Positions 751-60,063 of a DNA stretch of 64,000 nucleotides are shown in pieces. The notes under the pieces were generated by a model, which had not been told where the DNA came from, made no database searches, and worked only from the letters and a program-made list of their open reading frames with translations. The position numbers and the translations under genes are program-made. The number at the start of each line of letters is the position of its first letter. The stretch's first letter is position 1. This DNA is from Sanghuangporus weigelae (Eukaryota > Basidiomycota > Agaricomycetes > Hymenochaetales > Hymenochaetaceae): the NCBI GenBank assembly GCA_033182465.1, contig CP137330.1:124001-188000 (forward strand), in the 5' to 3' direction.

Positions 751-2355
751 ATGACTGAAGTTGAAGCTTTCGATCCGATTTTCGTACCTTCAGTTACTTT
801 GGAAGTTATCGTACAGCAATACGTTTCTGTAGCTGTTCTGACTCTCTTTGCCTATCATTACCGTATGTCACATTATTTCTATCATTTGGCTCCTAGCCTA
901 TTGATCTTATCGTCGACAAGTTCTGCATCTCGATAAGGAGGTCGGTATTTTGAATGACGATGCGAGAAATCCACTAATTTGCTTGCTTTGTAGATAAAAT
1001 ACTTCTGGGCAAGTCCTCTTGTAGAGTCCCGATTTCACGATCTCAACTTCCGAAAGGCAAATCCATGGAATATTGTCAGCATCATTTACTTCGTGGTAAG
1101 TATTATTACAACCACATGTTTACAATAGTCGATGACCAAATCACTACAGAACCAATATGCCGGTTTCCTGGGAGCAATCTGTAATGTCGTATGTAAGTAG
1201 CCACATAACAGGACCGGTCGAGAGTGAGAAGGACTCATGCATAAAGAAGACAATTGCTTCAACCTGAGCTACAGAAGGTATCGAATCTTATGCTAATCCA
1301 AGATTTCGAGTTCGGCATCTGATATGTTATCCTTCTGTGTATCTTGAACTTAGCTGTAAGTAGTCGCTTTACGGTAGCAACCACAATAGATGTTGACTCC
1401 TCCCAGGTCTGTTCTCTTACTGGGGAAGCGGAATGACTAGTGAGCCATATTTCTTATGTTCCGTTCTATTCACTCACATTGCTACGGGAACAGATTGGGT
1501 CAACGTATTCTTGATCGATTGTAAGCTACGTCCCGCTCGTCCCGGCTATCATCCCAGCTTATACAGTAATATTCAGATATCCTCACTATCAGAGTCTTAG
1601 CATTGTATAGTCAAGGTATGAAACTATTTTATATGTAAATAGGCTAATTTCTATCTTCTAAAAAGACAGGACGCTGGCCATCTGTCTCTATATCCCCCTG
1701 GCGTTGGAAGCTGTCTCTGAGCTCGGCCTTGTCATTTATACCGGCATGGTCGATAAAGGTGATGTCGTGACTTCATTTTGAGCCTGCATAATTCTCCTTA
1801 CTAGATAGTATCACTTCTCGTCAGTTTTCATTGGCGGCCTTGTAGATGGTATGACGGCCTGTTGTGACGAGTTCAACTCATTGGCGAGCGTAGACGTGAT
1901 TTCCTGGTGAGTACCATCAATCATAGTGTATCTGTAGTTCTGATTGCCTTTAGGGTCATGCCCATGGTGTACGGCTTAATTCTGCTCGCTCTTTCGGTTT
2001 ACAAAGCATTCGAGTACTGGAAAATGACAACTAGTCTGAGGGCCTTCCCGCTTGTCAAGGTGCTTGTCGAGGATCAAATCATATACTACTTTCTGTGCGT
2101 CTGTCCAATCACCTAAGAAGCATGGATATACTGACCTTTCACAGGGTCATCTCGTGCTGCGTTTTGAGGATCGCTGATCTCCTCGTCGCCGACATGAGCA
2201 TCTTCGCGAGCGCTTTCATCAACGCAACTGGAAATCCGACTTTTCTCTGCATCCTCGGCAGTCAGATATTGATTAACCTCAAAGAAGCAGGCGAGAGATT
2301 GACCAATGGCGGAACGGATAAGTCGAAAACCATCAGTACCATCCAGTTTGCTTGA
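751..2355 (+). CDS. DUF6533-domain multi-pass membrane protein, copy A
   Basis: Multi-exon gene for a receptor-like polytopic membrane protein of unknown function. Exon 1 (751-862) gives an N-terminal strand ending LTLFAYHY. It is followed by a 20-nt exon (921-940, LLHLDKE), a 15-nt exon (994-1008, IKYFW), a 39-nt exon (1057-1095, ANPWNIVSIIYFV) and a 43-nt exon (1150-1192, NQYAGFLGAICNVV). These match the DUF6533 pattern of hydrophobic helix, D-K/E-E, Y-W and NRY. Later exons carry further helices (YILTIRVLALYSQ; RVMPMVYGLILLALSVYKA) and the last exon (2145-2355) ends with the hallmark LKEAGER tail and IQFA-stop. Intron 3 (1009-1056) appears to use a GC-AG pair. The loop exon between about 1260 and 1410 is not securely resolved. 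This copy is diverged from the tandem array and lies opposite it, converging on HMG-CoA reductase. The family is sure; the exact splicing is less so. Confidence 0.8.
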
Positions 2356-2876
2356 GCAAACACGTTCTCTCTCCATCCGAGGATTCTTCCCATACACATT
2401 GGAGGTCCTTTACGCCATCCGCTCCAGCAACATCTGTCATTTTCCACACACATATATAAGCCCTGTTTAGCCGACATTCCGTGTGTTCAATTATATTTGG
2501 ATTCAACATGACTATTCTAATATATTATCCAGGAACATGCAATGAGGTAGAAAAATAGACGAAATCAGACTAATAAGTGTGTATATACAGCGAAGTTAAA
2601 GCATCGTCAGCCAAATCGTGGCCCGCAATCACAGAAGGTCAAAGATTTGTGAGAAAATTGAGGATGCATCGTAACATATGCGTTACTTGGTTGGTTGTCG
2701 AGAGCGAATGACGTGCACAAGTTGATAATGATACAGGGTGGCGAATTGAGAATTGAGAACGGAAAGCGAAAAGCAATAGCAAAGAGTGCAAGCACTTCAT
2801 GCACGGCATTCTAGAATGAAGTCGAATAATGCAGAGAATGAAAGGAAACCATATTCATAACAAAGAAAGCAACTGC
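2356..2876. other. Convergent 3' intergenic region
   Basis: About 520 bp between the stop codons of copy A (+) and HMG-CoA reductase (-). It must hold both 3' untranslated regions and terminators. It is A/T-rich with no coding frame worth reporting. Confidence 0.6.
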
Positions 2877-5800
2877 TCAGTCTTTACTTCCTTCTTTTGC
2901 GTCCGATTCTGGCTCAGCTTTTACGTCCCCAGTAGTTACGGTAGTATCCGAAAGTGAATAAGCTGGAAGGCTGACTTCGCTCTCCGTTCGACTCAGGCCC
3001 TGCTCCAGGGCAACCGCTTGTACAGCTCGAGTAGGCGCGGGAGTATGGATACCAGAGTAGGGCATGAACGGTGTCGAAATTCCGAGTGTCTCAGGAGCCG
3101 GAGTTGCTGGCACAACAATTTCCTTCTTCTCAGCAGATGCACCAGGTCCAGGAGTCACCGGCCGACTCGTCGCAGGCGTGTTAACAGTTGAGCGGTTGTG
3201 TTGCATGTGCGCCCTAATGAGGTGACCGGCAGCGAGCGCGGAGAGAAGGGACAGTTCACCGGCCATGACGGCAGCAGCGACAAGCCGAGCGAGCTTCTGA
3301 GCGTTCGCACCAGGTTGCGCATGATTTGCACCTTTGAGGCCGAGCATCTCAAGGACGGCACCCTGCGGGGCAAGAATAGTACCTCCACCAACCGTACCGA
3401 CCTCTATACAAGGCATCGTAACGGACATGCGGAGGTCAGCACCATCGTTCGCTGGTTCCATAAGCGTCATGCAGCTCGAGCTTTCGACGTTCTGTGCTGG
3501 ATCCTGGCCAGTAGCAAGGAAAATCGCCGTGAGGATGTTCGCAGCGTGAGCGTTGAATCCGCCAATGCTACCAGCCATCGCACTACCAATCAGGTTCTTC
3601 TTTATGTTCAAGTTGCAAAGATCCTTGACGGTAGTCTTGAGTACGGTTTGGACGACCTTGCCGGGGATGATAGCTTCAGCGACGACGCTCTTGCCGCGAC
3701 CTTCAATCCAATTGATCGCAGCAGACTTCTTATCCGTGCAATAGTTGCCAGAAAGCGCGAGAACGAGCATCTGGGGGAACTGCTGCCGAAGAGCTTCTAG
3801 AGCTGCCTCAGTACCCTTACTGATCATGTTCATACCCATCGCGTCACCGGTACTAGTAGCAAATCGGATGAATAGCGTCCTTCCCGCCAGAGCACACTTA
3901 AGTCCCCTGAGCTTAGCAAATCGACTGGTAGCCTCGAACGCTTCCCGTATTCTCTCCGAGCCATCTTCACTTTCGATCCATAACTTCGCCTCGGCCGCTT
4001 CACGCATACTCGGAAAGTCGATCGCGGGACCGCGAGTCATAGCATCCTGGGTAATCACAGTTGTAACGCCACCACCTGCGTTGAGTGCCTTGCATCCTCG
4101 CGACGCGGACGCGACAAGGGTGCCTTCTGCAGTGGCCATAGGTACCGGATATGCCTCGCCGTCGACGTTGAGAGGACCTGCAATACCGAGCGGGAGAGGC
4201 ACATAGCCGACGACGTTCTCGCAGCAGGCACCGAAGACACGCTCGTAAGCATAATCTTTGAAAGGCACGTCCGACAGTTCGAGCGTCTTCGTTCTTGAAG
4301 CACGAGCTACACAAGGCACATGCTTCAGTCATCATCTCCAGATAGAATGTTGACAAAACTTACAAATCAAAGCTCGCCTAATCCTGACAGCCCTTTCGAA
4401 ATCGCCGAGCATCTTCTCAAGTGCATAAGCCTGAATCTTACCCGCCTGACTGAGCATTATGACCTCCTCATCGTTGAGAAGCTTCAGGCTCTCTTGCACA
4501 GGTCGTGGGCCATTCTCAAAGATATCCAAACATTCCTCGAGAGGACGTGCTTCTTCTCTCGGTGGACTGATGGCCTTACCATCCGAGGACTTCGAAACTT
4601 GTTCCAACTTTCGGTCAACAAGATCGAGCGGAAGCGGGGCGACCTCTGGACGAATAGGATGCGGGCGAACAAGGCGAGCAGGCGGGATCGCAGTTAGTGC
4701 AACTTGAGTAGCGGGAGCAGGAGCCGGCTCGGACGGAGGTGGCGCAGAAGCAGCTGGGGCTCGTGGTTTCTCGCCGCCATAAACATTCGTACCAGCACTT
4801 TCTGAGCTTGCATTTGCAAGGGCAGACCTAATCGGCGCAAGGTTGCTGCCAAATCCAAACATCTGCTTCTTGCGCTGTTGTTCACGCGGCCGTCCCATCC
4901 TCCTCTCCACTTCGTCGCTATCACCACTTGTCTTCTCCTCCTCCGACTCAGCATCTCTTTCTTCCTTCACAACACCGAGGTTCGCAGCGCTGAATCTCAC
5001 TCCCGGAACAACACTTGCCAGACTCGACACCAATGTGTGGCCGGCAGCACCAGATGCAATACCTTTCATTAAGACGGCATTCAAAGCCAGCGAAAGTATT
5101 AGCGCAAGCGAGATGGTCTTTGAAAGAATAGGATCGCCAACAAGACCCGTCCATGCGGAAAGGAAAGCTTCCCACTGTCCACCCTGTGCATCTCGTTCCT
5201 TCTGCGACTGCGAAACATTAAAGCTCAATGATGGATCTGATTGGATCTTTCCGGACTTCATGCTCGGAGTGACATGCACAAAGAGCGGTGGGCTGATCCG
5301 CACCAAGAGGTCAGGTCGCTGGACATGATGCTCAGTCGAGTTATCAGAAGAGGGAGCAGGGGCCGAGAGCCAAACTGCTGCAAGACGATCAAGTGCACCT
5401 GCAACTTGAGGGCCAGAGACGTCTACCTTCCGTGCACCACCTAGCGCCGGTTCGCCAAAGTGGAGCGCACCGGCCGTATTGATGCGCGCAAGCGCTGTAG
5501 CAGGAGTGAGGGTGGTGCAGAGATTAAGAACATGCAATGTCACAAACGAGACGATCTATACATGATCCCGTCAACACATGCCTTCATATCATATCAAATA
5601 AATGCTTACAGTAAGGAGCTTCAATCTCGACACAGGATCTTGACCTTGCTCTCGCTCAATCCTCATATCTCGGAGCTCACGAACACGCTTCTCGTCGCCG
5701 TTTAAGAACGAACTCCGCTTCCTTAGCGCACTCGGTGGGCGTGCAACGGCCGTAACCGGCTGATCAACGATCGGCCCTGACAGACCAACAAGTTTCGTCA

Positions 5801-7971
5801 TCGATCCAAAGCTCGGCAGGGAAGGAAGAGATTTGATGGTCCTCCGAGTTGGAGAACTCAGACGCGATCCCGATCTCGATGGAGCAGTACTCACAGCCGC
5901 CGAAGCAGCTAATGTCGCCGCTCTCCTGTGCTTGATTCGCTTTACCTATTGCCATTAATCGACACGTTAGCACAAGCTCTTGATGAATAGCAATGGTAAT
6001 GGTGAATAGGGAACGAGGTAACGAAGCAAGGTGAAAGATGTAAACAAGCAAAACAAAACAAAACAAACAAAAACACGAGGACGCCTCCACAGGGGCTTCT
6101 CGTCGGCTTCTTCCGACAAAGCTTGACCCGAGCAAATAGAACAGAGATCAATGATGCAAGACGCGCGGAGAAGAGAAGAGGAGAAGGCAAGTCGCCATCA
6201 CGTGAAGCTATAAGCAAAAACTTCTGCGTCGCGACGCGTCCCCAAGACAATAGGAGAGATTGAATAGCTGCTCCTGGATTCGAAGAGCACCAGGAAATGG
6301 AAAGAACACAATAACAACGCACAATAAGCTGTGCATGCCGATCAACAATGATCGGGAAGCGTTATTCGGAACGCGGGGAAGGAGTGAAAATAATAGGACA
6401 ATGAGTAGCGATATGTTCCCAAAAATAAAAAGGCCCGTGGAAATTGAGTTGGAGGCGTATCAGATGGAATGAAATTGAAAAACAGGCTGCAAATAAGAAA
6501 AATGAAGGTGTAAATCCGCGATTAGGACCAAAATTAGGCTCGCATGAGGTCATACTAATCACCGATTTCCCTCCCAGTGAAGGCGATGACATGACTCCGC
6601 ATGCGAAAAAAAAGCAGCGGAGTCGGAAATTGCAGTTGAGATCATGCCGACCTCCACCGTGCAAGGATCACAGGCGAAAAGCGCAGTAAAAAGATAGCAG
6701 GGAAGGAAGAGAATAGCGGCGGAGACAAAGAAGGAAATACGACCAAGAATAGAACTTACCTCAATCATGACTCCCATGACGGCGACGTAGAATGTAACCC
6801 CGCTTAAACAATCGAATGCAAGAATGATCGCGGCAAATGCGCACATTTCCCGGAGACCTCCGACTTTCGAGCTTGCTCCGACCACAAGGACGAAGATTTC
6901 AAGTGTATAGTCCCTGAGAATTGCATTGCCAACACGGTCCAGCGCCTCGAGCAGGATTTGGTGAGCCGGCTTCATTACAGATGATGATGTCCTATTTACT
7001 CGGCCAGTGGGCGTCAGAGTTCCGTCAGATGGCGAAACCGAGGAAGAGGGGACTGGCATAAATATATGTTCATGCGTGAATACAGCTCGTCCAAGTCGAA
7101 GCGGCTTGTCGAAACCAACCGTGCACACGAGGAATGGCAATGCCTCGGTGAGAAGCACCGGATCGACGGGGATACCAACAAACAAGGCGATTGGCAATGC
7201 CAATACAAATGCTAGAGTGCTGCTCGTGAAAATTGCTGCTGAGAGCCAGAAATGCGAACCGAGTGCTCGAGCGGAAACGATGAGGCGGAAGAACGTGATA
7301 TGCATAAGGATGTAGCCCGCAAGCACAAGGAGAATGTCCAACGAATCTGCTGCACGAGCGAGTTCGGTAAATCGTGTGACGAGTGCTCGCACGGCGTAAG
7401 CAGCCCATCGGCCATGCTGGAGAAGTTCTGGAGCAGTCGGCGCGGCCTCGAGCGTAAATTTCGCTCCATTGATACTAGGCAAACCACGCTTGAGAGACGA
7501 GACAGCCGCGTCGCGAGAAGATGATGAAGGCAGGACTAGCGTAAGAGTTGCTGAACGTTCACCGGCATTGAGAAAATGGAATGAAGCATGCTCGGAGAGT
7601 CGTGAAGTCGTGTTCTGCAGAGCGTCCTTGAGATTCTCCTCCGTGAACGAAAAGTCGATGTCCGCATACGCCTTCTTCCTCTTCAAGCTTGAATCCAAAC
7701 CAAACAAGATCTGCTGAAATTCCATCCGTTCCTCATTGTCATGACCAGATGCAGCCCATACACTCTCAGGTACGGCTGCCCATTGTTCGTTACGTAGTAA
7801 AGCATGCGCTGGCCTTAGCGATGTCGGGATTGTAGGAGAAAGGAAAGTTGACTCGCGAATTGCAGCAAGAACATTGAAATATGCAAGTGTTGCAGCAATG
7901 AACCCAAGTACAATCGTTTCAATTGGGTTGTGCGCAGCAATGGACGCAAAAGGGCGCAATATTGCGCGCAT
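2877..7971 (-). CDS. HMG1: 3-hydroxy-3-methylglutaryl-CoA reductase
   Basis: Reduces HMG-CoA to mevalonate with two NADPH, the committed step of the sterol/isoprenoid pathway, in the ER membrane. Four exons read in one frame: 7971-6760, 5945-5610, 5555-4364 and 4306-2877, giving 1389 residues. The first helix is at about residues 18-37 and a sterol-sensing-type membrane block at about 211-404. A low-complexity linker follows, then the catalytic domain from about 900. Visible motifs: ENVVGY with catalytic Glu943, DAMGMN (from Asp1068) for NADPH binding, DKK with Lys1106, GQDPAQN with Asp1182, GTVGGGT, and HMQHNRS with His1280. Ser1286 matches the AMPK-phosphorylated serine of animal enzymes. 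A Thr/Pro-rich tail of about 103 residues follows. Intron 1 is 814 bp, far longer than the other introns here (54 and 57 bp). ATG 7971 is the first in-frame start and is followed directly by the first helix. Confidence 0.96.
6047..6074. repeat. A-rich (AAAAC)n microsatellite in HMG-CoA reductase intron 1
   Basis: A run of AAAAC/AAAC units inside the 814-bp first intron. It is a simple repeat and part of why this intron is long. Confidence 0.75.
6197..6205. promoter_or_regulatory. Candidate bHLH/SREBP-type E-box in HMG-CoA reductase intron 1
   Basis: The sequence atcacgtga contains the palindrome TCACGTGA, the form of E-box that SREBP-family factors are known to bind besides sterol-response elements. 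It lies in the unusually long intron 1 of a classic SREBP target gene, which is suggestive. An 8-bp palindrome is expected about once per 65 kb by chance, so this is a hypothesis. Confidence 0.3.
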
Positions 7972-8660
7972 CTTTGCTAGGTGTTATACGCCGGTGTCCG
8001 CCTTAACGTCTGCTTGCTATTGATGGTGGCGAAGACGAGGGCGTCGAGCACGACGACGAGAGTATGGGGAAGGGGGGGAACGCAATGGAGAGACGGAAAA
8101 AGTCGCGCAATATAAGCGGGACGCCGTTGGATTATGTCATCCTCCTACCACATCTCCAACTATTGTCCTTCGATTCCTCCAACCGTGCATTCCTTGATTT
8201 ACTAAAGTCACCCAGAATAATTCTTGCAGTTTAATGATATCAATGCGCAAGTTTCGTGGCTTTCTGTCTATTCATTGAATTTATTTCACTCAAATACAGC
8301 TTAAGCCTCAACGATTTGCTCCCGGCACTTTCCATAAAAGGATGCGCCAATCGGATGACAGAAAAGGAGATTATGACCAATCAGATGTTCCATTTGCTCT
8401 TGTCTCCCCACTATCACATACATCACAAATTATTGGTCTCAAAGTGGACAGCCATTCAATCCCAAAACAACCGTTCATCTCGCAACTCATACACCTTACA
8501 GCCCCATGTCGTCAAGAGTCTGTTTGACGCTACAGTGACTCACTCGCATCGTCGGACCTTATGCGTCATTGTCTTTCATGACTTGCCTCTCAGGTCTTTG
8601 ATGAAGAATTTCAAACGGAAAAAATAGCTTCGCGATGAAATTATTCTGAGACCAGCGAAG
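7972..8660. promoter_or_regulatory. HMG-CoA reductase upstream region
   Basis: Region 5' of the reductase start. On the minus strand a TATA-like stretch (cttatatt, about 8109-8116) lies some 140 bp before the ATG. The strand has a purine/pyrimidine bias around 8060-8100. No convincing coding frame was found from 7972 to 8660. Confidence 0.35.
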
Positions 8661-10891: not shown

Positions 10892-12541
10892 CTATAAAAA
10901 CTCTATTGCACTGACGCTCTTCAACCGGTAGCTCGTTCCCTCATTGAACCCCAACTCGGCAGCCTCCTTCAAATGAACGAGGAGATACCCGCCAAGTACG
11001 GATAGAAGCGTCGGACTTTCCGCTGCATTCAAGAGCTCCGATACAAAGCGATTGTCATCAAATATCCGATTATACATTATCTTGAGGACCGAGCAGAAAA
11101 TAACACTGCATCTAAAGTAAGCAAAGAGGGCAATACGCGAAATCAAAGCAAATGTATCCTCACGCGCAGTAGAACATGACCTGATCCAGAACCAGAACCT
11201 TGACAAGTTTAAATCCTTTGAACCCGGAGGCTAGTCTCCAGTACTCTCTAGCCTTGTACAGAGCGAGGCTCAAGAGAATAAGGCCAAAAGCTAATGGTAT
11301 ACACCTATCGAAGATCAGCAGGTGAGGTGATACCTAGATTAAAACTCTTACCAGGAGATTATTCCGATTAGCTTAGGAGGACTTCTTTTGTATGTGCAAA
11401 TTGTATCTCCATCTGCCAGACTCCTAACGACAGCTAATTTGCAGCAGAGTTCTGAGTATTGAAAGATGAGTATGTATGTAAGTGAAAACCCTCACTGCCT
11501 TCAAACATGTAGCCGTAAATGAGCATTCCTAAGCCAGAAGCGCCATCTAAGACAAATAGCGATCTGAGGCAGCATGCCAACTTCCTATCTGTCCCGACTC
11601 AGGAATGTTGTATCTGGCAAGAATGTTTGGGTACATACCTTGGTGGTAGAGTGCCAGAACACGGATAAGAAGAATGTCTGTTGCATCTCCATTTAATGAT
11701 TCCGACATGGCAGCCTATAAGAAACAGAAGCAATATCTCACAATCAATCATAAGGACGGTGGCCCAATCTACAATTTCTGTGAGCAAGACATAATGAGCC
11801 TGGGGAAAGTACTTGCTGGAAATTGCGCCAGCCCATCTTGCAGATAAGCTTGATCCATAAATCAATAAAAGTTGCCCACGCGATAGAAGAAGGACTGACA
11901 ACTAGACAAAATATATGTAAGACAATGCGATGGAGAAGTTCTTCACAGCGCACCTCAATAATTTCTCATTGAATTGGTTCACTGTCGCATAGTCAGGACC
12001 ACGTCCATAAAGTCCTAGTTGGAGAAACAGGTTCCGTGGCTTACAGATTACGTTGAAGATGGCTCCAAGAAGTCCAATATAGCGATTCTTCGATATGTGT
12101 AATCAGTCATAGAAGCGGAGGCCAAACAAGAAAACTCACTGCGAAGTATATCAAGGATATACGGGCGAACGGATCGGGCTTCAATTGACCAGCAGTAAGC
12201 TACCTACATATTTGGCAGCATAAAGGACAGGATATACCCCAAAATATTTAATCTGTTATTGAATCTTCATAAGAGACGAGTCTCAACGAGAAGACTGGGA
12301 CCTCTTACTTCGCTATCCATCGTGGTGACTTGAATGAGAAGGAGAATCAGCAGGACCGCTGCGTGAATCGAACTAGTGACGTACACATGTTGTAGAGGAT
12401 TAAGCAAAGTAGAGCGACATTGAAGTACTGTCTCGTAATGATCGATGTGTACTCTGTCACCAAAGTAGGATCATCAGAATAATTAGCGAGTCTCGAGGAA
12501 AACAATTGAGTCGCATTGTTTTCGAAGTGCAAGGGAGACAT
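10892..12541 (-). CDS. DUF6533-domain multi-pass membrane protein, copy B
   Basis: First of the ten minus-strand DUF6533 genes. Exon 1 is 12541-12385 (157 nt, phase 1), starting MSPLHFENNATQ and running into the first helix (YFNVALLCLILYN). A further in-frame ATG lies at 12571, but 12541 gives the N-terminus most like the other copies. The short exons are recognisable as IKYFG (Trp replaced by Gly) and NRYIGLLGAIFNV. The last exon reads SVIFCSVLKIMYN, then SPTLLSVLGGYLLVHLKEAAE and ends SAIEFL-stop. A TATA-like ttataa lies at about 12576-12581, some 35 bp before the ATG. Sequence is clearly diverged from copies E-J, so this is an older duplicate. The spacing and phases are kept, but a complete splice model was not verified. 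Confidence 0.75.
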
Positions 12542-13921: not shown

Positions 13922-15584
13922 TCAGGATTGCACTACAGAACCTGATTCTGATGTGAACTCCATATCACTAAGGCTTCTCGATCGATAGTTTGTTCCTTCG
14001 TTAACACCCCTCTTCCCCGCTTCCTTGAGATTTATCAGAAGCTGATCTCCCAGGACGCAGAGAAGTGTAGGACTCCCAGCCGAGACCAGAATCACCGCGG
14101 CGTAGGGATTGTTCACACGAATGTACACTATACGCAGAACGCAGCAGACAATAACACTATAAGAGATTACCATCAGTTGCGCGCAGAGTTTTTACATTAA
14201 AATTTACCCACAGCATGTAGTAGATGACTTGATCTCGGATGAGGATGCCGACGAGACGGTATCCTTTGAATCCAATTGACTGTCCCCAATATTCAGATGC
14301 CTTGTGGAGTGCCAGTACAAGCAAGATTAACCCGTTCACCATCGGCAGTGCCCTAAAGTCGATCATGAGAGTGAATAAAGAACAGATTTAAGAATGATGT
14401 AGACCATGTAAGAATTAGCACTTTCGGAGGACGTTGCTTGATTCCACAGAATGTAACACCTTCAGCGAGAATGAGAACGGACACTGGGCAAAATTATACA
14501 TTAGCTAAAATGTGTATACAAGCATCATGTCGCACTTACTTCGTTCGATATAAGTACTATAGATAAGAGCTCCGAGAGCAGCGGTTGCCTGTAATCCGAG
14601 GATAGCTTTGAGGCCGATGTCTAAACTCCTTTCTTCAAGAGCTCTTAGCCTTCATGTTAAGATACGAGAACATCCCTGACTTACTCTTATGGTACAGAGC
14701 GAGGACTCGAATGAGGAGAATGTCTGAAGTCATCTTATTGGAATCGGGTTCAGTGAATTAAAATTACTCTCTCACAATCAATCAATGTGATGGTGATCCA
14801 GTCTGAAAAGAATGCCGTAAGTGAAACTTTTGATCACATTACGACTTGTTTTCTTACTTGCAATTGAAACCGTCCAATATGAGAATCGACCTATCCTCTG
14901 TTTAGCAAAGCGGAACCTCAAACTAGAATATTCACACACAGCTAGAAACCGTGGCCGATTAGACCTGATCATATAGAGACTATCCGGTACTCACCTAATA
15001 ATATTCTCGCTGAAATCGTTATCTGAGAAGGACATTTGAAACCGTCATGAAGTGCTCTGAGTAACACGGATATCGATCTAAACGCTCATTGGACATACAG
15101 ACAATACCGAAGACCGCCCCCAAAAGACCCACATAACGATTCTAAATTCATGAGTCTGACTAAGAAACAACTTGGCCGGAGAGAGAATATCTTACCGCGA
15201 AGTAGACCAAATTGACTGGTCTTCGAGGTTCGGACTTTGCACGTCTAATTAGGCCAATCTACCGGTTTCAAGAAAAGAAAACTGACCCAGAAGTATTTGA
15301 TCTACAGTCTAATTTCCAGAAGGGAAGATAGGAAAACATAGTCTGAGCATACCTCTTTCTCTATTGTTAGCACTTATGAAAGTTGGCCTCTTCAGCGGGC
15401 ACCTTTGCATTAGGGAACTTCACGCACTGCAATGGTAAGCCAAGAGAGTCGCGAGCGCTACGGAGAAGTATTGTTCTATCACGATGATAGAGACGTTCAA
15501 TCGCACGACAGCTGGGTCAGAAGGCACTGGCTGCGCATCATCACGTACAGATCTCGAGGCACGGTGAAATACAGGAGTCGACAT
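13922..15584 (-). CDS. DUF6533-domain multi-pass membrane protein, copy C
   Basis: Start taken at ATG 15584 (MSTPVFHRASRSVRDD), which gives a normal-length N-terminus. The frame is open upstream to 15797, but those residues are low-complexity and unlike the family. Exon 1 is 15584-15428 (157 nt, phase 1), ending LATLLAYHC. A later exon reads ALPMVNGLILLVLALHKASEYW and GYRLVGILIRDQVIYY. The last exon holds SVIVCCVLRIVYI and SPTLLCVLGDQLLINLKEAG and finishes MEFTSESGSVVQS-stop. The C-terminus is longer than in copies A, D and M without needing the extra final exon found in the array copies. Function unknown; membrane protein by composition. Confidence 0.77.
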
Positions 15585-16442: not shown

Positions 16443-18054
16443 TCAAGCAAACTCCATGCCACTCATACTTTCCGGCGTGTAGTTCGTGCCTCCATTCGCT
16501 CCTCTTTCTCCAGCTTCTTTCAGGTTGATCAATAGCTGCCCACCGAGAACGCACAAGAGAGTCGGACTTCCTATCGCACCCAGGACACTCGACACGTAGA
16601 TATTGACGGTTCGTATACTGAGAAATATTATTCTCAGGACGCAGCAGAAAATGACGCTACGCGGTAATGAGGATTAGAATTTCGAGGAAAAGACGAACAT
16701 TTCGCTTACAAGGCAAAATACATGACTTGGTCTTCAATCAAGACACGGATCAGATGTAGGCCTTTGAAACCTGACGACAACCTCCAGTACTCTGCTGCTT
16801 TGTAGAGCGCGAATCCGAGAAGGATCAGCCCGTAGGCTATTGGTATGGTCCTGTTGTGGATCAGACATAACTCCATCCTGAGTTAGAATATACACATACC
16901 ATGAAAAAATGCTCAAACCCCGCGGAGAAGCCCTCTCCAATCCACAGACTGTCATTCCTTCTGAAAGAGTCCCAGCGGCAACTACAGAGCATAGCTCGAG
17001 GTCCATACAAGCAGATCAGATAAAACTACTTACCGCCAACATATATATTGTCATAGATAAGAATGGCGAGGCCGATGGCCCCATCCAGACCAAGTAGCAG
17101 TAGAAGCCACGCAAACAATTTCTTGTCTAGAGAAGGTCAGGATAATGAACTTCATTGTCGAAAAAGTACTCACTCTGATGATAGAGAGCCGAGACACGGA
17201 GGAGCAGGATGTCTGCAACAATGGCTCGTCAAATCTTCCGGATAAGAATGGTGGGCGTGTTTCCTTACAGTCGATCAGCAAGAAAATAATGAGGTCTGTC
17301 ATCCAGGTTAGTGGGAATTATATATCCATTAGATCGAATCTCGTACTGGTTAGTGATACCGTCCAATACAAAGCTCGACCTATGCCAGCAATAATTATGA
17401 CCCACGCATAACTGACGAGAGTGACAAGGCAGCACATACAGCTAGAAGCGCAGCTGATTAGATTCCAGATGCAACCCGGGCGCATAGTAACCACGTACCT
17501 TAGAAAAGTCTGACTAAAGCCATCCACTAAAATGATAATGTCTAATCGAGATTTCCATGTCAGCGAGTGTGCGTCGGGGACTAACCGGCTACCGTGCAAG
17601 CAGCTCCCAGAATCCCAATGAAGCGGTTCTATGGGGAATAAGAAGCTATATGGCCTTCAATCGAAAAGAGTGCTTACTGCAAAGAAGGTCACGCTCGCAG
17701 AACTGCGCGGGTCAGACTTGGGCTTTCGTCAGGCAAATAGGCTGCAGTGCAGCTGAAACGGCTTACCCAGAAATATTTTACCTAGCAACGAGAATCAGCA
17801 AAGCTTGCAGACAATCATCGAAAAGTGTAATACCTCTTTATCCAACGTAAGGACTACGGGATGCAAGAGTCATGAATGCATGAATTTAAAGACGAACAAT
17901 TCGTACAAGCATGATAGACCAGGACAGACAGAAGTGCCACAGCGAAGTATTTGCCAGTCATGGTCACGGACACGAAGAGCTCTACCAGGCTCATGTCGAC
18001 TGCTTCCGGGTCAGAGCGGGTTTGAAAAGAGTTTGTCACATTGAGAATCGACAT
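16443..18054 (-). CDS. DUF6533-domain multi-pass membrane protein, copy D
   Basis: Exon 1 is 18054-17907 (148 nt, phase 1): MSILNVTNSFQTRSDPEAVD, then the helix YFAVALLSVLVYHA. The last exon encodes VIFCCVLRIIFLS, SPTLLCVLGGQLLINLKEAG and GANGGTNYTP and ends MSGMEFA-stop at 16443, a short C-terminus as in copy A. Intermediate exons (for example the loop near 16740-16860 with KAAEYWRLSSGFKG) match the array copies. The first-exon length is identical to copies E-J, so D is the copy outside the 7.6-kb repeats that is closest to them. Function unknown. Confidence 0.78.
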
Positions 18055-44155: not shown

Positions 44156-45880
44156 ATGGCTGCTCTCGCCATAGTGCTCCTTTTTATTGTAACATTCCTA
44201 GGTGTTTCCTACGTCCTTCTGAACGACGCTCGTCTCCTTCAAATCCCTTCCCGCGTGCTCAAATACTCTCCGGAACGATGGACGGACCAAGAAATACTCT
44301 CCACCTTCACGCGTCTTCAATCTAACCCAAAGTCAATCCACTCTGCCTTGCCACCGCGGACGGGGAGGAAATACATCGTCACAGGCGGAGCTGGATTCCT
44401 CGGTGGCTGGATCGTGCGGCATTTACTTGAACGCGGGGAAGATCCCAGGAAGATCAGAGTGCTAGATATTCGATTACCGACGAGACGGGATCTCACCACG
44501 GGTAAAGCGAAGGATGTGGATTGGAGGGTTTGCGATGTCAGCAACGCAGAAGCTGTTCGCACAGCTTTCACAGATACCTGGCCTTCATCCACTGCACACA
44601 CCGATACCCGGGACAAGAACGAGGACGATGAAATAACGGTATTCCACACCGCCGCCTGTATCCGATTCTACGAACGCGCCGCTTCCCTCGTGCCCTTTTC
44701 GTCCCGCATAAATGTAGTAGGCACACAAAACGTCCTTTCTGCTGCGCGTTCAGTAGGCTGTTCCGTCCTCGTCTCCACTTCCTCCGGTTCCGTAGCGCTC
44801 AGGCGCTCGAGGTTTTGGTTATGGCCATGGGAACGCGAGCCGCCCTACTTCGTCCAATCCTTCGGCGACACGGACTCAAACGAAGAAGATGGAATGGACA
44901 ATAATATCATTCCGAGGAAGCATGAAGAATTCTTTTCTAACTACGCATATACGAAGAAACAAGGGGAATCTCTAATCCTGCGCGCCAACAATACTCCATC
45001 TTCTCTTGGGAGGACCCTGCGCACAGGTTGCGTACGACCTGGAAACGGTATATACGGACCGGGTGGAGACGTTCTTCTCGGTGCAGCTCTCGTTCGAGAA
45101 ACGAACCCGACTTGGATCAAGCGCATCGTCCAGAACTTCGTCTACGTCGAGAATGCAAGTTATGCGCATTTGTGTTATGAAAGGAAGCTCATCGAGCTTT
45201 CGAACGAGAAGGGCAAGGATATAAAGGCGGAGAGGAAAGAGACGAAGGATGTAAGTGGAAGGGCATATTACATCGCGGACGCTGGTCCTCCGCCGACATA
45301 TGGAGACGTCTACCACGCTCTTTCCGTTCTGAGCAACAATCGCGCTACGTTCCCTTCATTCTCACCGACCCTCATGCTTGCATTCTCACATGTTGTCGAG
45401 CTCATTTACTTATCCCGGACTGCACTTGTCCCCGTAATCCTCTCTGCATCTGGAAGAATAGATCATCTAGGCACGATCTTCCTTCCTCTCTCCCTCCAGA
45501 AATCTCTTTCCGGTGCTTTGCAACGTCTACCCAATCTCATCCCAGACATCCCCTCCGAGCTGCTCAATCTCCAACCGTCACTCTTCCCGCTCGTCCTCGT
45601 CCATCTCATATTCAACAACTCCCTCGCTTACTCGGACCTGAATTACAACCCACCATATACCACGATCGAGGGCGTATGTACGCTCGTGGATGCGTTTGAG
45701 AAGAGCGGGAGAGAGGAGGAGGGGAGACAGAGGAGCGGTGGTGGTATCGGACTTGGACTGGGAATCGGGAAGAGACTGAAGTTGGGACTGGGAGGATTGG
45801 GAGGCCTGGGATTGAGGAAGAGGAAGACTGGGAGTACACCGGCTTTGGTTGCGCAAGGCGGTGGTGTAACGCCGAAATAG
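44156..45880 (+). CDS. 3-beta-hydroxysteroid dehydrogenase-like extended SDR, membrane-anchored
   Basis: Single-exon gene, 574 residues. An N-terminal hydrophobic anchor (about residues 3-22) is followed by a Rossmann nucleotide-binding motif TGGAGFLGG at 76-84 and the catalytic YxxxK pair Tyr263/Lys267 (YAYTK). The fold is that of extended SDRs of the 3-beta-HSD/isomerase and sterol-4-carboxylate dehydrogenase (Erg26) group, which use NAD(P) to oxidise a 3-hydroxyl. A sterol substrate is plausible, but the protein is much longer than Erg26 (about 350 residues). It has hydrophobic stretches around 395-430 and an odd glycine/leucine-rich tail (about 530-560, repeated GLG) ending in basic residues. 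Could equally act on another hydroxylated substrate. The lack of introns contrasts with the neighbours. Confidence 0.82.
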   Translation: MAALAIVLLFIVTFLGVSYVLLNDARLLQIPSRVLKYSPERWTDQEILSTFTRLQSNPKSIHSALPPRTGRKYIVTGGAGFLGGWIVRHLLERGEDPRKIRVLDIRLPTRRDLTTGKAKDVDWRVCDVSNAEAVRTAFTDTWPSSTAHTDTRDKNEDDEITVFHTAACIRFYERAASLVPFSSRINVVGTQNVLSAARSVGCSVLVSTSSGSVALRRSRFWLWPWEREPPYFVQSFGDTDSNEEDGMDNNIIPRKHEEFFSNYAYTKKQGESLILRANNTPSSLGRTLRTGCVRPGNGIYGPGGDVLLGAALVRETNPTWIKRIVQNFVYVENASYAHLCYERKLIELSNEKGKDIKAERKETKDVSGRAYYIADAGPPPTYGDVYHALSVLSNNRATFPSFSPTLMLAFSHVVELIYLSRTALVPVILSASGRIDHLGTIFLPLSLQKSLSGALQRLPNLIPDIPSELLNLQPSLFPLVLVHLIFNNSLAYSDLNYNPPYTTIEGVCTLVDAFEKSGREEEGRQRSGGGIGLGLGIGKRLKLGLGGLGGLGLRKRKTGSTPALVAQGGGVTPK

Positions 45881-47048: not shown

Positions 47049-48783
47049 ATGATGGTTCTTTTTAACATGCTCAGCTCTTTGAAAACTCGTTCGGATGCTG
47101 AACAGGTTGATCCAAGCATTGTTCAGTTCATCGTGTCAGAGTTCACTACTACCCAGTACTTCTATGTGGCTCTCTTGACCGTCTTAGTTTACCATTCCGG
47201 TACGCACGCACAAATTCTCTCTGGTAATCGGCATCTCACCTCACCTCATCTTATCTTTTGATATGCAGTTATCACTATGGACAAGGAGGTATCGTCCTAA
47301 TGGGGTACCGCCTTTTTGCTCATGTCGTTACTTGATTATTGTTCTTAGGTCAGGTATTTTTGGGTGAATAGCATTGTTTGACTTTCATTTTTTTTTTTTT
47401 TCATTAATCATCTGACCAAAATTGGAAGCCGAAACCATGCAGCACCGTCAGCATTATATACTTCGCCGTGAGTGGCATGTAGAACTGTAAACCGGACATC
47501 TGCTGATCATGAGATAGAACCGTTTCATCGGACTGCTTGCGATTGTTAGCGAACTAGATCGTAAATCATGAGGTTATATGTGTAACACAATTGGCTCTTA
47601 AACTTACACATTTACCAGTCCAACTTTTCACAGAGAGCCTCGCAAGGTATGTGCATTCGGTATAAGTGTCCTGCTGCATGAAATCTTGATGTTCACCTCC
47701 AGTTGTCTGTATTCTCTCTGAGGGTCTGTTTCTCGAATAACTCTGTGATCTAGGTCTGTTCTTATATTGGACGGAAGAATTGGCCAGTACGTATTTCAGC
47801 CAAACGTCGGAGTCGTGCTCATGTGATTGATAGATTTAATCACTGTGTTGTTGATTGATTGTAAGTGGGTACACTAGATCTGTCGTAGCTGACCACTTTC
47901 TATGGCACATAGATATTCTACTCATCCGTGTCCTGGCACTCTACCACCAAGGTGAGCGCACTTCTACATGTAAGGCTGCCTCAACTCATTGTTTTGCAGA
48001 TAAGAAACTGTCCATCGCCCTTAAAGTCTTCCTAGGATTGTACGCTGGCGTTGGCCTCGGTTTGTGCATTTATTGCAACATACTTGAAGGCTGTAAGAAC
48101 TTTTCCCATTCCGACTGTTTTGCTTGAACTGAACTTTCCTCAGTCCTCGTCGGCAGTCTTGCGGATGGAATGACAATTTGCGGAAATCGCAGATTTCCCC
48201 TTCGTATAATTCCTATCATTTCTTGGTAAGAACATACAGCACTGTGTCTAGGCCTCGTCTAATCCCTTTCAGGACTATGCCAATGACATATGGTCTGATT
48301 GTGCTTGGACTCGCGCTCTACAAAGCAGCAGAATACTGGAGACTGTCTTCCGGTTTCAAGGGTTTTCACTTGGTTCGTGTTCTCATTGAGGACCAGGTGC
48401 TATACTACGGCTTGTAGGTACTTTGGAAGCTACTCGGATCACTTCGCGTCTAATCACCTAGAAGTGTCATCTTCTGCTCTGTTTGTAAGATCATAAACAG
48501 TAGCATTGTAGAAATAAGTCCTTTCGCTGCAGATGTCCTGAACGCCATAGGAAGTCCTACTCTCCTCTGCGTCCTCGGAGGTCAGCTTCTGATCAATTTA
48601 AAAGAAGCCGGGGAGAGAGGCGCGAATGGCGGAACAAACTACACGCCAACAAATAGTGTCAGTGATATCGACTTCGGCGAAGTGCGTCGTTGACTTTCAT
48701 TTGTGGATCTCCTGACTTATTGTGGCATCTACAAGAATAATGCAGTTAACGAGCAAAGCTCGGGAGGCGAAGGTTCAGTCTGA
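47049..48783 (+). CDS. DUF6533-domain multi-pass membrane protein, copy L (inverted, array-like)
   Basis: Best copy for reading the gene structure. Exon 1 47049-47199, exon 2 47269-47288 (20 nt, VITMDKE), exon 3 47349-47363 (15 nt, VRYFW), exon 4 47429-47467 (39 nt, PKPCSTVSIIYFA), exon 5 47518-47560 (NRFIGLLAIVSEL). Later exons give YWTEELA, LITVLLID, ILLIRVLALYHQ, KVFLGLYAGVGLGLCIY and RTMPMTYGLIVLGLALYKAAE. The tail exon has SPTLLCVLGGQLLINLKEAG and SDIDFGE, and the final exon 48736-48783 encodes NNAVNEQSSGGEGSV. It shares the spliced tail with the main array although it lies on the other strand beyond two unrelated genes. The loop exon(s) between 47600 and 47780 are not securely resolved. 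Function unknown. Confidence 0.84.
47388..47401. repeat. Poly-T run in copy L intron 3
   Basis: A run of about 14 T within the intron between exons 3 and 4 of copy L; it acts as a long polypyrimidine tract. Confidence 0.8.
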
Positions 48784-49427
48784 TACATGGTTTCGTCAGG
48801 TATATGGCTTGACGCGAACGAGCGGGTACCTACCCGGAGTTAGCGCTAGGCCTCGTTGGTTTGGACGTCTTTTTTTGTCCGAAGTGTGCATGCTGTATCG
48901 GTTTATTATTTATTTTGTACTCGGAGAATGTCGAGCACTGCGTGATTCCATTTCTTACGCCGTGTTTTATTCCTTTGGTGTAGTTTGCTGGACTTCAGAT
49001 AGATGTGTTTCCCGTTGAAATGTGGAGTATATGATGAAAAATAGCAGCATGTTCTCGCCGGCGGCGAAATGAAGACGTCCAAGTGTGTCAGTAGGTGCCA
49101 TCGTTTGTTGATATTAGCGGCGGGACACCCACGAAACTATGAAATCAGAATGACTTCAGCGTGTACATATATCATGAGAAAGATGAACTTGTGCTTACCT
49201 TCCGTTAACTTAGCCCCGCTATTCATACCATCAATCACGAGCTCTAATCCGAATCCCCGAGACGTGCCTAGTTGCACCATATCAACTGTCGAGACAACCC
49301 GCTTTCAACAGAATGGGCAAGCCGTGTCGAGCATTGAGTGTCAGAGGTATTATTGTATTATGTTCTTATGTAGATCTATTACGCCTTGTACTTTTCTTTG
49401 GGACCAGAAAAGTTCTTCGGGTATTTA
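48784..49427. other. Convergent 3' intergenic region between copy L and SAM50
   Basis: About 640 bp between two stop codons. It contains an inverted repeat (gggtacctaccc, about 48825-48836). No gene recognised. Confidence 0.5.
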
Positions 49428-51264
49428 TCACAAGAAATCGACCCCGATACCAACCTGAACACCTCTCCTGACCGCATCACCCTTATTCGCGACCAACGGA
49501 ACGCCAAAGTTGAACTCGACGCGGACGCCAGGATCAAGCCGATACAGCAAGCCGACGCCGGCTGAGATGCAAGGCTTGGAAACGAGACGCTGAATGGTAT
49601 GAGAAAGGGGGCGATCTGGGAAGCACCGACGAGTAGGAACGATAAGCACGAGAGTGACGAGAGTAAACAAAGAAAAGAGTACGTGCCACGGTCGATTAAA
49701 TCCAGTCTCCCAGCATTGACAAATCCATGCATTTTTATATTCCCCTTCCACCCTTTCCTGCCTTCCTTACTCAACCCTGGCAAATCTCTTATTACACTCA
49801 AGCCAAGACACCAAAAGACTTCTCCACCGAGTGCATCGTTCCCGTCTCGAAAGCCCAATCCATTTTGCTTGAACATCCGCACGTCGAGCGGACCACCAAG
49901 CTGAAAACGGTCGTTGAATCTGCTCCTCGGAATCGAAGCAGAGGAAGAAAATAAAGAAGGCGACAGAGAAGCGAAGGGATACAGGCATCCAACACGACCG
50001 GATAGTGATATGGAAGTAGATGAGAGTAGTTTGTGGGCGAGCTGGAATGCCGTACTGTGTTTGACGTGCGCGGTATTCCCTCCTAAACCTGCGAGTTCCT
50101 GTAGCAAAATGATAAAGCCCATTAGAGTCGAAACGACGGCATTAACTGTAACTTGCATTGAAAGTCCTCAAATATCCTCCTCGGGAAGGAACTGCCTTAT
50201 CATCTCTCGATTCGTAAGTGCAACTATGGCTCAAAGCACTTTTGACGGAAGTCCCTGCCTCTTCACGAATACTTATCGATGCGCCCTCAGTAAGAGCATG
50301 GATATGCCTCAGCGATGCCTCGTAAGCGATTTCGTTTAGCGTTCTCCTGTTCACAGTCTACCCAACAGGCAAACAGAAATCATTGAGTTTCAACTAAATG
50401 CTTTCGCTTATAGAATGAATCTGACCTAGCTTACTTTAATCGACGCGCGCAGTCCCCTCACACCCTCCACGCAACTCGCGAAGCCTGTGAAGTCCTTTTC
50501 AACTCCGAACACGCTCAGTTCACCCCTTGTCCTCAAGTCTGGGTTCCATATCGGCTTTGATAGGCTTACGTGCCCAGCAAGTCTCGTCCTCAATCCCGAA
50601 GAAAGAACACCTTCGACTGTCTCCGCGCTACCAAACGCGTTCCGTGCTCGCGCATGAACGCTCACGCTCCCTTCTTGATTACCCAACTCTGTAGCAGTCT
50701 TAAGGAAGTACTTCCCTTTCTGCCTCATTTGCAGAATGAGATCGACATCACCTGGCTGCGCAAGAACATCCTTCGATCCTTCAAGACGCGGAAGAACATA
50801 GTGAAACAGATCGGTCTCGAGGAGTTTACGCGCGACGCTTTTCGTTGAGAATAAGACATCTGATAGTGTCGAGGAGTCAGACTTGGCGCGAGTGAGCTGG
50901 GGCTCAATGACCCAGTGCAGAAACGAGGGCCGCGTCTTGGTCGCGCCGTCGACGCGCACGGAGGTGATTCGCATAGGTGTCTTAGCGTTATCCCTAATCT
51001 TTTAAAAAGTAGCCAGATACTCAATTCCATCATGAAGACAGCAGAAAATAAAATGCGCACCAGCTCCCCTAGTCTCAAAAGTACGCTTTCATATTCACCT
51101 CTTAGTTTTCTCTCGATTCGCTCCTCCTGCCACTTCCTCACCTTCTCCAAGTCCATAGGATCAGGCTCCCGCTCATGAGGTGAGGATGTATCACGCAAGG
51201 GAGCAACGATGCGCTCGGCGAGCGGCACGACCGGTTTAATATCATCTGTACTGGCAGCGTTCAT
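49428..51264 (-). CDS. SAM50: SAM50/TOB55, mitochondrial outer-membrane beta-barrel insertase
   Basis: Core of the sorting and assembly machinery that inserts beta-barrel proteins into the mitochondrial outer membrane (Omp85 family). Five exons in one frame: 51264-51061, 50980-50435, 50357-50157, 50098-49690 and 49615-49428, giving 515 residues, a normal length. Exon 1 is charged (EKVRKWQEERIERKLRGE), exon 2 begins with the POTRA region (ITSVRVDGATKTRPSFL), and the rest is barrel, with DRFQLGGPLDVRMFKQNGLG typical of the family. It ends with the beta-signal-like GVQVGIGVDFL. Intron 3 (50099-50156) uses a GC donor (gcaagt) with a normal AG. ATG 51264 was chosen; the frame is open to 51390 but the extra residues look like leader sequence. 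Ordinary housekeeping gene between DUF6533 loci. Confidence 0.92.
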
Positions 51265-51618: not shown

Positions 51619-51693
51619 TCAAGCAAACTCAATCTTGCTCACAGTTTCAGGAATGTTATTAGCTCCTCCGTTCGCACCCTTTTCTCCAGCCTC
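51619..51693 (-). pseudogene. Orphan DUF6533 C-terminal exon fragment
   Basis: After an acceptor-like cttttgcag, the minus strand reads EAGEKGANGGANNIPETVSK and IEFA-stop. This matches the DUF6533 tail (KEAGERGANGGTNYTP and MEFA-stop of copy D). No other exon of the family can be seen upstream, where the GH51 3' end begins about 130 bp away. It is probably a stranded relic of a lost copy. Confidence 0.65.
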
Positions 51694-51823
51694 CTGCAAA
51701 AGAATACTTATTTACATCACTGCATCACTAGCTGTACAGAACGAGAACGGATAAATAAAAGGGTTCTCTGCAAAGAGCGACATCCAAAAGTCTTTCATAT
51801 GGACATCTCCACGTATAATGCAC

Positions 51824-58034: not shown

Positions 58035-58410
58035 CACTAACAGGTTGCTCGTTGTCGCAATGTGGCCTTTGAAGTTCAATTTTGAAGACTTGAAGTAGTC
58101 ACGTGTAGAATTTATCAAACCGCCAACAACTTGCCCCAGTTAAACTATTGGAAAAATCCCTCATGTCAATGTATTCAAAATCAAATTCCGGCAACAAATA
58201 AGCAATAAGTCATGAACTAAAATGAAAATGACTATCTAGATGCATGATTACAGGATAAATGATTCCGCTTTCGGCCACAAATGCAGGAATCATCCATCGA
58301 AACGGCCGTAGACTAATTCAGGGTGATACTTGATAACTGGGAGCTTGAATGTATTTGTCGACCTGACCATACAATTAAAATTGTTCTTTAATAACATAGG
58401 AATGAACCGA
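58035..58410. other. Intergenic region before copy M
   Basis: About 375 bp, A/T-rich, with the promoter of the coiled-coil gene and the 3' end of copy M. Nothing else seen. Confidence 0.5.
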
Positions 58411-60063
58411 CTAACTTTGGGAGAACTCGATTTCACTTAAAATTCCACTTGTCCTATCACCGACACCATCCTGTCCCGCCTCTTTCAAGTTGATCAGAAG
58501 TTGACCCCCGAGCACACTCAAGAATATGGTATTTCCTGCCACTTCCATGATCTCCGAGACAAAAGGGCTTGAATCGGTAAGAGGAAGATCTGCTATCTTC
58601 AAGATGCAAATGAGCATGACCCTTCCACATATTATGCGTGAGGCTCATGCACAGAAATGAAGTTTAGCCACTTACGATCCGTAGTATAGAACCTGGTCTT
58701 TGACAAGGACCCTGACAAGACGGAAATCCTTGAAACCTGGAGATAACTTCCAAAACTCTATGGCCTTGTAAATCGCAAGTACCAGAAGTAATAAGCCGTA
58801 TACCATCGGTATGAGACTAACACTAGTCAAGCAATGGCGGAAAACGAAATTTAGCAAAACGCTTACTTTGAAGTGAGGTTTATTAAGAATGATGGGTTTG
58901 ATCCTAAGGCACATACTGAAAATTTTCCAGTAATGCTAAAAGCGGTACCTAAAAAGACACAAATCATCTTATGAGCAAGGCGCACGACTTGGACCAAGAA
59001 TGAATATAATACTTTGTTCTTTCCATACACTATAAATCAGGGTGGCAAGACCCAGGAGTGCCTCCGCTCCGAGAAGACTCATTAAGCAAATGCGCATTTT
59101 CCTGTCTGCAAATCATGAAACCGAGATATGCATTGACATAAAGTGCATTACTTACTTTGATCATAGAGTGCTAATACACGGATGGCAAGAATGTCTGGAG
59201 TTTCATTCAAATGAGTCAGGCGCTCAGAGATCCAGAGACATTCCCTACAGTCAATTATAACAAATATGGCTGAATCTATTCTAGAATTGAAAATCATCCA
59301 TACTGAACATCGAGTGGTATATGTACTCACCTGCAACTGCACTGATCCAATATGTGATGCTACCTATGACACCGGTCAATACGAGTCAATCACATTCATC
59401 TATATAGAAAGTGTTATACAGCTGGGTAAAGGTCATGTCAGAATACTCGGAATATAGTGGTCACTCATTTTTGGTGCACCTTATAGGAGTTTCTTCGATA
59501 CCATCATCTGGAACAAGGAATGAAGCTTATACATGGCGAAAACACATAGTTATTTGGACTTACATGCCAAATTGAATATAGCTGCTAAGAGCCCGACTAA
59601 ATGATTCTGCATTCGGTTATTCAGAGTCAATGAAAGTCGCTTTGTATCCAGAGACATACATACTGTAAAGTAGACCAGACTTGTGGAGCTACATGGATTT
59701 GACTTGAATATTTCTGGCTGTAAGGATGTGTGGCCATGGTTCGATTGGAAAGCTTACCCAAAAGTATTTCATCTATTTGTTCCATTGTTAGTTCGATGGA
59801 ATGGGAGAGATGTCAGATACCAATACCTCATCATTCATAGTGAGAACTGTGCATTGCAACATAGATATCTCTTGAGCGCCAAGTCAGTCCGAAAAATCTC
59901 ATTACATACCAGAATGATAGACCAGAAGAGTTGCAAAAGCCACATCGATATACTTGTCAAGAATGGTCTCTGCGAAGAGCAACTCAAGTTCTGGGTCAAT
60001 AGGCCCAGCTTCAGAGCGAGCAAAGAAAAATTGCCGTGTGTGAGGGTCTAATTTCATGGGCAT
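58411..60063 (-). CDS. DUF6533-domain multi-pass membrane protein, copy M
   Basis: Start at ATG 60063 (MPMKLDPHTRQFFFARSEAG); exon 1 60063-59910 is 154 nt, with YIDVAFATLLVYHS. The 15-nt exon reads MKYFW and the next SNPCSSTSLVYFT, keeping the family micro-exon pattern. A later exon has LIPMVYGLLLLVLAIYKAIEFW and FKDFRLVRVLVKDQVLYY. The tail exon has KIADLPLTDSSPFVSE and LSVLGGQLLINLKEAG and ends ILSEIEFSQS-stop, without the extra spliced tail. A TATA-like tatatataa lies at about 60110-60118. It is the most diverged right-hand member, separated from the array by several unrelated genes. Function unknown. Confidence 0.8.

Follow-up and report, generated by a model that had tools for sequence, protein, structure and literature searches.

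SNB1 (Snowball) of Coprinopsis cinerea is a DUF6533 protein that acts in fruiting-body development and is predicted to cross the membrane seven times, with its N terminus outside and its C terminus inside; the domain is described there as basidiomycete-specific, the snb1 family is given four members in C. cinerea, with no major expansions noted by its authors, and the choice between receptor, transporter, and channel is left open (PMC10949477). The DUF6534 proteins, seven-transmembrane (7TM) proteins of Agaricomycotina, have been proposed from machine learning and modelling to form a new class of fungal G-protein-coupled receptors (GPCRs) (PMC12842992). Extremely small exons have been described in other genes: Fusarium CYP621A has a 1-nt exon that keeps the frame and completes a conserved motif, as confirmed by transcript data, and is called the smallest described in fungi by a study that also cites 2- to 5-bp exons in Arabidopsis, Drosophila, and humans (PMC12940212); APC11 of Arabidopsis is likewise reported to have a 1-nt exon (PMC4674806), and the shortest exon reported in the cytochrome P450 genes of Phanerochaete chrysosporium is 6 bp (PMC1184071). 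We analyzed a stretch of 64,000 nt of Sanghuangporus weigelae (assembly GCA_033182465.1, contig CP137330.1, here C13:124001-188000), called the window below, in which genes of one DUF6533 family are crowded. In our reading, to which we give a probability of roughly 0.6, they belong to a large DUF6533 subfamily of 7TM plasma-membrane proteins of ~300 to 330 residues, most likely chemoreceptors, that is kept by purifying selection, grows in tandem, and has an obligatory exon of 2 nt. New here is this predicted exon, with the sequence AG-NT-GT (the middle two letters being the exon), which would supply the first base of a conserved Cys codon.

All 11 spliced models compared with Pfam (one for each window copy except copy I) matched DUF6533 (PF20151), as the original prediction had supposed, and this was their sole Pfam match at an E value of ≤0.01. 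Against a gathering cut-off of 24.1 bits, copy E scored 54 bits in its first hand-spliced version and 52.9 bits as a full model, and copy K scored 46.2 bits. A six-frame Pfam scan of the genome (33.87 Mb in 13 contigs) found 57 DUF6533 places, none of them in the window; it missed the window copies because in these genes five exons share the coding of the domain, which is 46 residues long, and spliced models were therefore needed. The same 11 models had no match to DUF6534 (PF20152) at an E value of ≤0.01 and none to the pheromone receptor family STE3 (PF02076), and the window held none of the 66 DUF6534 places and none of the 14 STE3 matches of the genome. The DUF6534 places, which belong to another 7TM family, lie on contigs C12, C5, C2, C1, and C9, many of them on C12 and C5, and G-alpha gave 32 exon matches in the genome.

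The window holds one of several clusters of a genome-wide family. A probe made from exon 13 of copy K found at least 98 places in the genome at an E value of ≤0.01, with 12 inside the window, and an exon-14 probe at least 97, of which 15 were in the window (12 genes and three fragments). These counts are lower bounds. The window makes up 0.19% of the genome, yet holds 12% of the exon-13 places; further clusters lie elsewhere on C13, on C9 at 2.0 to 2.2 Mb, and on C11.

Gene structures were obtained with our own spliced-alignment script, which aligns a protein profile to DNA with penalties for introns, stops, and frameshifts and with manually chosen splice weights; its starting point was a single protein, that of copy E, spliced by hand. 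The 12 long copies of the window share a series of exons: a first exon of 148 to 157 nt in 11 copies (112 nt from its ATG in copy M), followed by exons of 20, 15, 39, 43, 28, 2, 33, 27, 39, 93, 82, 141, and ~208 nt. The first five lengths had been given in the original prediction and stand; it had missed the 27-nt exon, which sits within an apparent intron of 126 to 133 nt, the 2-nt exon, and a 15th exon that is probably real in one clade. The latter, found in D to I, K, and several loci elsewhere, follows an intron of 52 to 56 nt and would give a plausible C terminus, often ending in SV; in the other clades the reading frame closes just past exon 14. Several copies depart from the series. In copy A, exons of 35 and 58 nt replace the 28-2-33-27 run; B and D have 79 instead of 82 nt, H has 31 instead of 43 nt, and I has 39 instead of 28 nt; L has 77 and 101 instead of 93 and 82 nt, reverting to 93 and 82 nt under a wider profile; and in M a single 102-nt exon replaces those of 15 and 39 nt. 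None of the 12 copies has an in-frame stop, and a frameshift was needed in one only, copy I, because its exon-6 acceptor is CCG instead of the CAG of six other aligned copies.

The 2-nt exon was followed through 39 loci, each with a model of >350 bits: the 12 window copies and 27 loci on C13, C5, C9, and C11. Six lower-scoring partial or damaged loci (L022+3788, L024+232, L025, L026, L032, and L040) and two halves of L012 were excluded; of these, L022+3788 was the single locus among the six whose model shows a 2-nt exon ahead of the 33-nt exon. The best model contained the 2-nt exon in 36 of the 39 loci (11 of the 12 window copies and 25 of the 27 loci outside), and in the three exceptions (copy A, L035+7432, and L041) AG-NT-GT is still present, so that the motif stands at this place in 39 of 39 loci. 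Dinucleotide shuffling would be expected to yield it in 1.8 of 36 loci, and it was met in 12 of 300 stretches of two introns around other small exons; the 36 loci had been chosen for having the exon, and the unselected figure for the motif is the 39 of 39. Genome-wide, the longer motif AGYTGTRNGT was not enriched (1,011 occurrences versus 1,322 in a reversed control), and the motif therefore carries meaning through its position within the gene alone.

Exons 6 and 8 lie 104 to 129 bases apart, about twice the median intron of 52 nt. Mismatches between paralogs, taken over the 30 standard models, show a modest peak at third codon positions in both of these exons (0.54 and 0.52, versus 0.39 to 0.44); these peaks set the frames of the two exons, and 2 (mod 3) bases are therefore required between them. 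When the Ser and Cys columns of the profile were blanked, the 2-nt exon was still preferred in 31 of the 39 loci. Its letters in the standard models are CT (15), TT (12), or GT (3): the first base closes the preceding codon and is variable, and the second, always T, opens the codon of the conserved Cys (TGT in 26 and TGC in 4). In the 16 loci inspected, the introns are unlike one another by eye while the position of the exon is kept. The flanking introns 6 and 7 have the normal donors, acceptors, and lengths that are looked for around a micro-exon, with medians of 58 and 49 nt, a G at +5 in 0.93 and 0.97, and a pyrimidine at -3 in 0.97 and 0.97 of the standard models.

Blocking the 2-nt exon cost 1.0 to 19.4 bits, with a mean of 11.5 bits over the 36 loci. 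Here the alternative has to be weighed that there is no such exon and that a shifted donor or another small exon gives the required bases. Several observations count in its favor and against a 2-nt exon. Six of the 36 loci (L012, L028, L029, L030, L031, and L035+4842) have a GTGTGT donor, at which a shift of two bases keeps the frame, encodes the Cys, and costs only 1.0 to 4.3 bits, and five of these six adopt the shift once the Ser and Cys columns are blanked. Among the other 30 loci, 22 have a best alternative that also keeps the frame, through another small exon or other sites, at a cost of 7.6 to 19.2 bits; and a branch-like motif is barely above chance at the two acceptors (0.50 and 0.40, versus 0.31). 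On the other side, the best alternative costs 7.6 to 19.4 bits across all of these 30 loci and needs an extra frameshift in 8 of them, and the motif AG-NT-GT is at the place in all 39 loci. We regard this alternative as unlikely; the models suggest that most of the genes examined need the 2-nt exon to be read properly. It is probable, in our estimate, that an obligatory 2-nt exon, supplying the first base of a Cys that would fix an outer loop, has persisted while a receptor-like family diversified to ~95 genes within a single fungus, a figure that rests on the 39 modelled loci and is extrapolated for the remainder. In L012 and L031, exons that seemed to be fusions of the 28- and 2-nt exons were considered as intron losses that would prove the micro-exon and were rejected, since they may be 2-nt donor shifts and were gone under the wider profile. 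Two other DUF6533 genes, L001 and L002, were checked for the state of the Cys codon and gave nothing firm.

Selection on the copies is purifying. By the method of Nei and Gojobori (NG86), the ratio of nonsynonymous to synonymous divergence (dN/dS) between window copies has a median of 0.19 and a maximum of 0.44 (46 of 66 pairs, those with a finite dS), and it lies between 0.26 and 0.44 within D to I, with copy I included and its frameshift codon dropped. Together with frames that are open in 11 of the 12 copies, this agrees with the earlier view that the genes are under selection rather than debris. A decaying repeat array, whose copies and splice signals look intact by common descent and not by function, could be imagined from the 3' fragments, the lost acceptor of copy I, the ambiguous exons of copy A, the 6 loci with stops or frameshifts among the 27 modelled outside the window, and the six partial or damaged loci outside the 39. 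We hold such decay to be extremely improbable, given the dN/dS values above and exon lengths that are conserved across clades whose introns no longer resemble each other by eye.

An alignment of the 31 intact proteins has seven hydrophobic peaks above a lenient cut, the first and last of them weak, and 35 positions conserved at ≥95%, including C94 and C170. The mean net charge over the 39 models is -2.0, -0.6, -0.7, and -1.4 for the four predicted outer parts and +1.0, +1.1, and +2.0 for the inner loops. Hydropathy and loop charges fit proteins that would cross the membrane seven times with the N terminus outside and the C terminus inside, whereas the charge of the C-terminal tail, given below, does not. 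The ratio of nonsynonymous to synonymous differences per site (pN/pS) for outer face, inner face, and helices was 0.64, 0.23, and 0.33 in the tandem set of the window; 0.66, 0.22, and 0.31 in the array at C13 555 to 572 kb; 0.60, 0.17, and 0.35 in the C9 array; and 0.67, 0.09, and 0.34 in that at C13 977 to 987 kb. The predicted outer face thus has ~3 to 7 times the ratio of the inner face, with disjoint bootstrap ranges for the two in all four arrays, in sets that contain the damaged models of copy I, L012, L041, and L042. Ratios for single regions are noisy (2.4 for helix 4 in the C13 555- to 572-kb set; ~2 for helix 6 and outer loop 3 in the C13 977- to 987-kb set). The contrast between the faces is as expected of chemoreceptor-like 7TM proteins and fits a role in sensing.

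We propose the following mechanism. Two Cys residues that probably form a disulfide bond, the first where helix 3 reaches the outer face and the other in outer loop 2, would fix the shape of the outer loops, which differ between copies and may thereby meet different small ligands. The nearly constant inner face, with the segments ILLIRV-AL at the inner end of helix 3, K-x2-E-Y/F-W...F-K-G-F in the loop ahead of helix 6, and NLKEA after helix 7, would couple to one common downstream partner. The family would expand by tandem duplication, its copies being retained by purifying selection. Each gene is predicted to have 13 or 14 short introns, two of them 2 nt apart; inclusion of the 2-nt exon would keep the frame and make the first Cys, and the upstream intron is probably removed first, which would assemble the donor of the next.

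The same data can be read as those of 7TM transporters, channels, or membrane enzymes whose outer loops are merely less constrained than the inner face. Receptors usually combine seven helices with an outer face that varies and an inner face that hardly changes, and class A GPCRs have a conserved Cys at helix 3 and another in outer loop 2; both features, as predicted here, speak for receptors and against this alternative. The following points favor it and weigh against chemoreceptors. A profile search matched no chain of any solved structure, GPCRs included, at an E value of ≤10, and as this search revealed no sequence relation to a solved GPCR, the family is not filed as GPCRs. Outer-loop pN/pS did not exceed 1 beyond the bootstrap range in the four arrays; relaxed constraint therefore explains the outer loops as well as adaptation does, and positive selection is not claimed. 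Predicted helices 3 and 6 contain the conserved acidic residues D113 and D225, respectively, a feature that a transporter would show as well; the C-terminal tail has a net charge of -1.1 over the 39 models, which does not fit a C terminus inside; and the helix borders and the outer and inner regions were set by hand. The authors of the SNB1 study, too, allow a transporter, a channel, or a receptor (PMC10949477). Taken together, a transporter, channel, or enzyme seems to us rather unlikely, if worth keeping in view, and chemoreception remains the preferred reading.

Receptors for self/non-self or mating-type recognition are another candidate, as the genes are clustered and duplicated and their outer loops are variable. 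The 14 STE3 matches, though, are all on C10 and C7 (among them C10:716022-718881, C10:1545350-1546369, C10:1733804-1734907, and C7:564182-565245), one of the six open reading frames (ORFs) ending in CaaX lies in copy M and one in a KH-domain gene, and 98 places in the genome exceed what a mating locus would be expected to hold. Such a role is without support in this analysis, and we consider it very unlikely. The number of CaaX ORFs (six, whereas ten mononucleotide shuffles averaged 1.6) is uninformative, the shuffle being a poor control, and was not used.

A nucleotide profile built from seven aligned window copies returned 12 long DUF6533-type copies, four 3' fragments that match clearly, and three places that match weakly. 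The 12 near-full-length genes and at least four tail fragments of the original prediction were thus recovered, the genes by spliced alignment as well, and its separate truncated copy was not found beyond the 3' fragments. Six of the copies, D to I, all on the minus strand, are the product of local tandem amplification: the pairs D-E, F-G, and H-I, whose members flank a 3' fragment that is also on the minus strand, are three copies of a unit of ~7.6 kb with 75 to 82% DNA identity. Unit 1 consists of copy D (19531-21118; 2-nt exon at 20491-20492, a probable 15th exon past 19531, and an additional in-frame ATG at 21157), a fragment (22372-22657, by DNA profile and exon probe), and copy E (23547-25140; 2-nt exon at 24511-24512 and a probable 15th exon past 23547). 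Unit 2 holds copy F (27190-28771; 2-nt exon at 28161-28162 and an additional in-frame ATG at 28813), a fragment (30100-30354, by profile and probe), and copy G (31176-32772; 2-nt exon at 32143-32144). Unit 3 is made up of copy H (34764-36355; 2-nt exon at 35728-35729, exon 5 shorter by 12 nt), a fragment (37456-37752, by profile), and copy I (38555-40151; DUF6533-type and outside the Pfam set, with the lost exon-6 acceptor and a 2-nt exon at 39521-39522). The longest of the four fragments (41270-41615, minus strand, by profile and probe) follows. The introns of nine D to I pairs differ by 0.12 to 0.32, below the dS of the same pairs (0.19 to 0.52), and with such divergence the amplification is not recent. 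The "local explosion" of the original prediction therefore holds for these six copies, from a local unit present three times, and not for the window as a whole, which has 12 of 98 genome places and whose other copies lie in separate branches.

In a protein tree that omits 3 of the 39 loci, A, B, C, K, L, and M stand in separate branches, those of A, B, and L being deep. Copy M groups with a gene of the left flank (support, 0.999) and copy K stands beside the C13 555- to 572-kb array, with a support of only 0.08. The nearest relative of copy F in the tree is I, not D or H (support, 0.79), and a separate F-I match has 82.4% DNA identity; as F and H are nearly as similar in the stretch where they are paired (81.8%), this is no more than a weak hint of a sequence exchange involving copy F. 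The closest pair in the tree, L038 and L039 (C5:582-592 kb and 628-638 kb), are near-identical family members ~46 kb apart in opposite orientation.

An in-frame ATG is present in all 12 copies. Copy M, on the plus strand, extends from its ATG at 751 to the end of exon 14 at 2349, with exons 3 and 4 read as the single 102-nt exon and the 2-nt exon at 1354-1355; at the other end is the divergent copy L (58423-60063, minus strand; 2-nt exon at 59420-59421), whose furthest upstream in-frame ATG is at 60063. The outer limits drawn in the original prediction, 751 and 60063, are accordingly the start codons of the outermost genes. Between them, on the minus strand, lie copy A (10898-12541), with atypical or ambiguous exons 6 to 8, copy B (13955-15584; 2-nt exon at 14940-14941 and an additional in-frame ATG at 15659), and copy C (16449-18054; 2-nt exon at 17440-17441), and, on the plus strand, copy K (47049-48675; 2-nt exon at 47703-47704). 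The region of exons 6 to 8 of copy A (11742-11981) may contain a GC-AG intron (GCAAGT) or may have lost its frame; both fit by eye. Unrelated genes are interleaved with the family, as described earlier: an HMG-CoA reductase ORF (2877-7983, minus strand), whose upstream neighbor ORF has a sterol-sensing domain, the KH-domain gene, a 3-beta-HSD/ERG26-like gene (44141-45880, plus strand), and an Omp85-domain gene (49379-50167, minus strand).

Mushroom-forming fungi respond to many chemicals and few of their sensors are known; a clustered family of ~98 places, constant on its predicted inner side and variable on its outer side, is a natural candidate for a set of sensors. If the 2-nt exon is real, the genes would depend on the ordered splicing of two introns separated by two bases, and most copies would have been broken by automatic annotation, so that a large fungal chemoreceptor repertoire would be hidden. 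Should the family usually be misannotated owing to its exons of 2, 15, 20, and 27 nt, its size in other basidiomycetes would be underestimated. The exon would also offer, in dozens of paralogs, natural replicates for the handling of two nearly touching introns by the spliceosome. Among the matches listed in a search of the open-licence literature, we found no report of a 2-nt exon in the DUF6533 family; the one "microexon" mentioned in a paper on Rhizoctonia solani AG8 refers to a setting of the aligner and sets no precedent (PMC4014442).

Compared with the described systems, the window family shares with SNB1 the DUF6533 domain and the predicted 7TM topology, and differs in that C. cinerea has four members of the SNB1 family, versus at least 98 clustered places of one subfamily here. 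The DUF6534 proteins are likewise 7TM and numerous in this genome, under a different Pfam model, and the STE3 receptors are 7TM fungal proteins whose model, PF02076, the window copies do not match. The exons of CYP621A and APC11 are, like the one predicted here, ultra-small internal exons needed for the frame, and that of CYP621A was inferred by the same logic. Those, however, are found in single genes or orthologs, with transcripts in Fusarium, whereas the predicted 2-nt exon recurs in dozens of paralogs of one genome. The P450 genes of P. chrysosporium resemble the window family in belonging to clustered multigene families of a white-rot basidiomycete with introns of 45 to 55 bp and very short exons, the shortest of which is 6 bp there, in contrast to the 2 nt predicted here.

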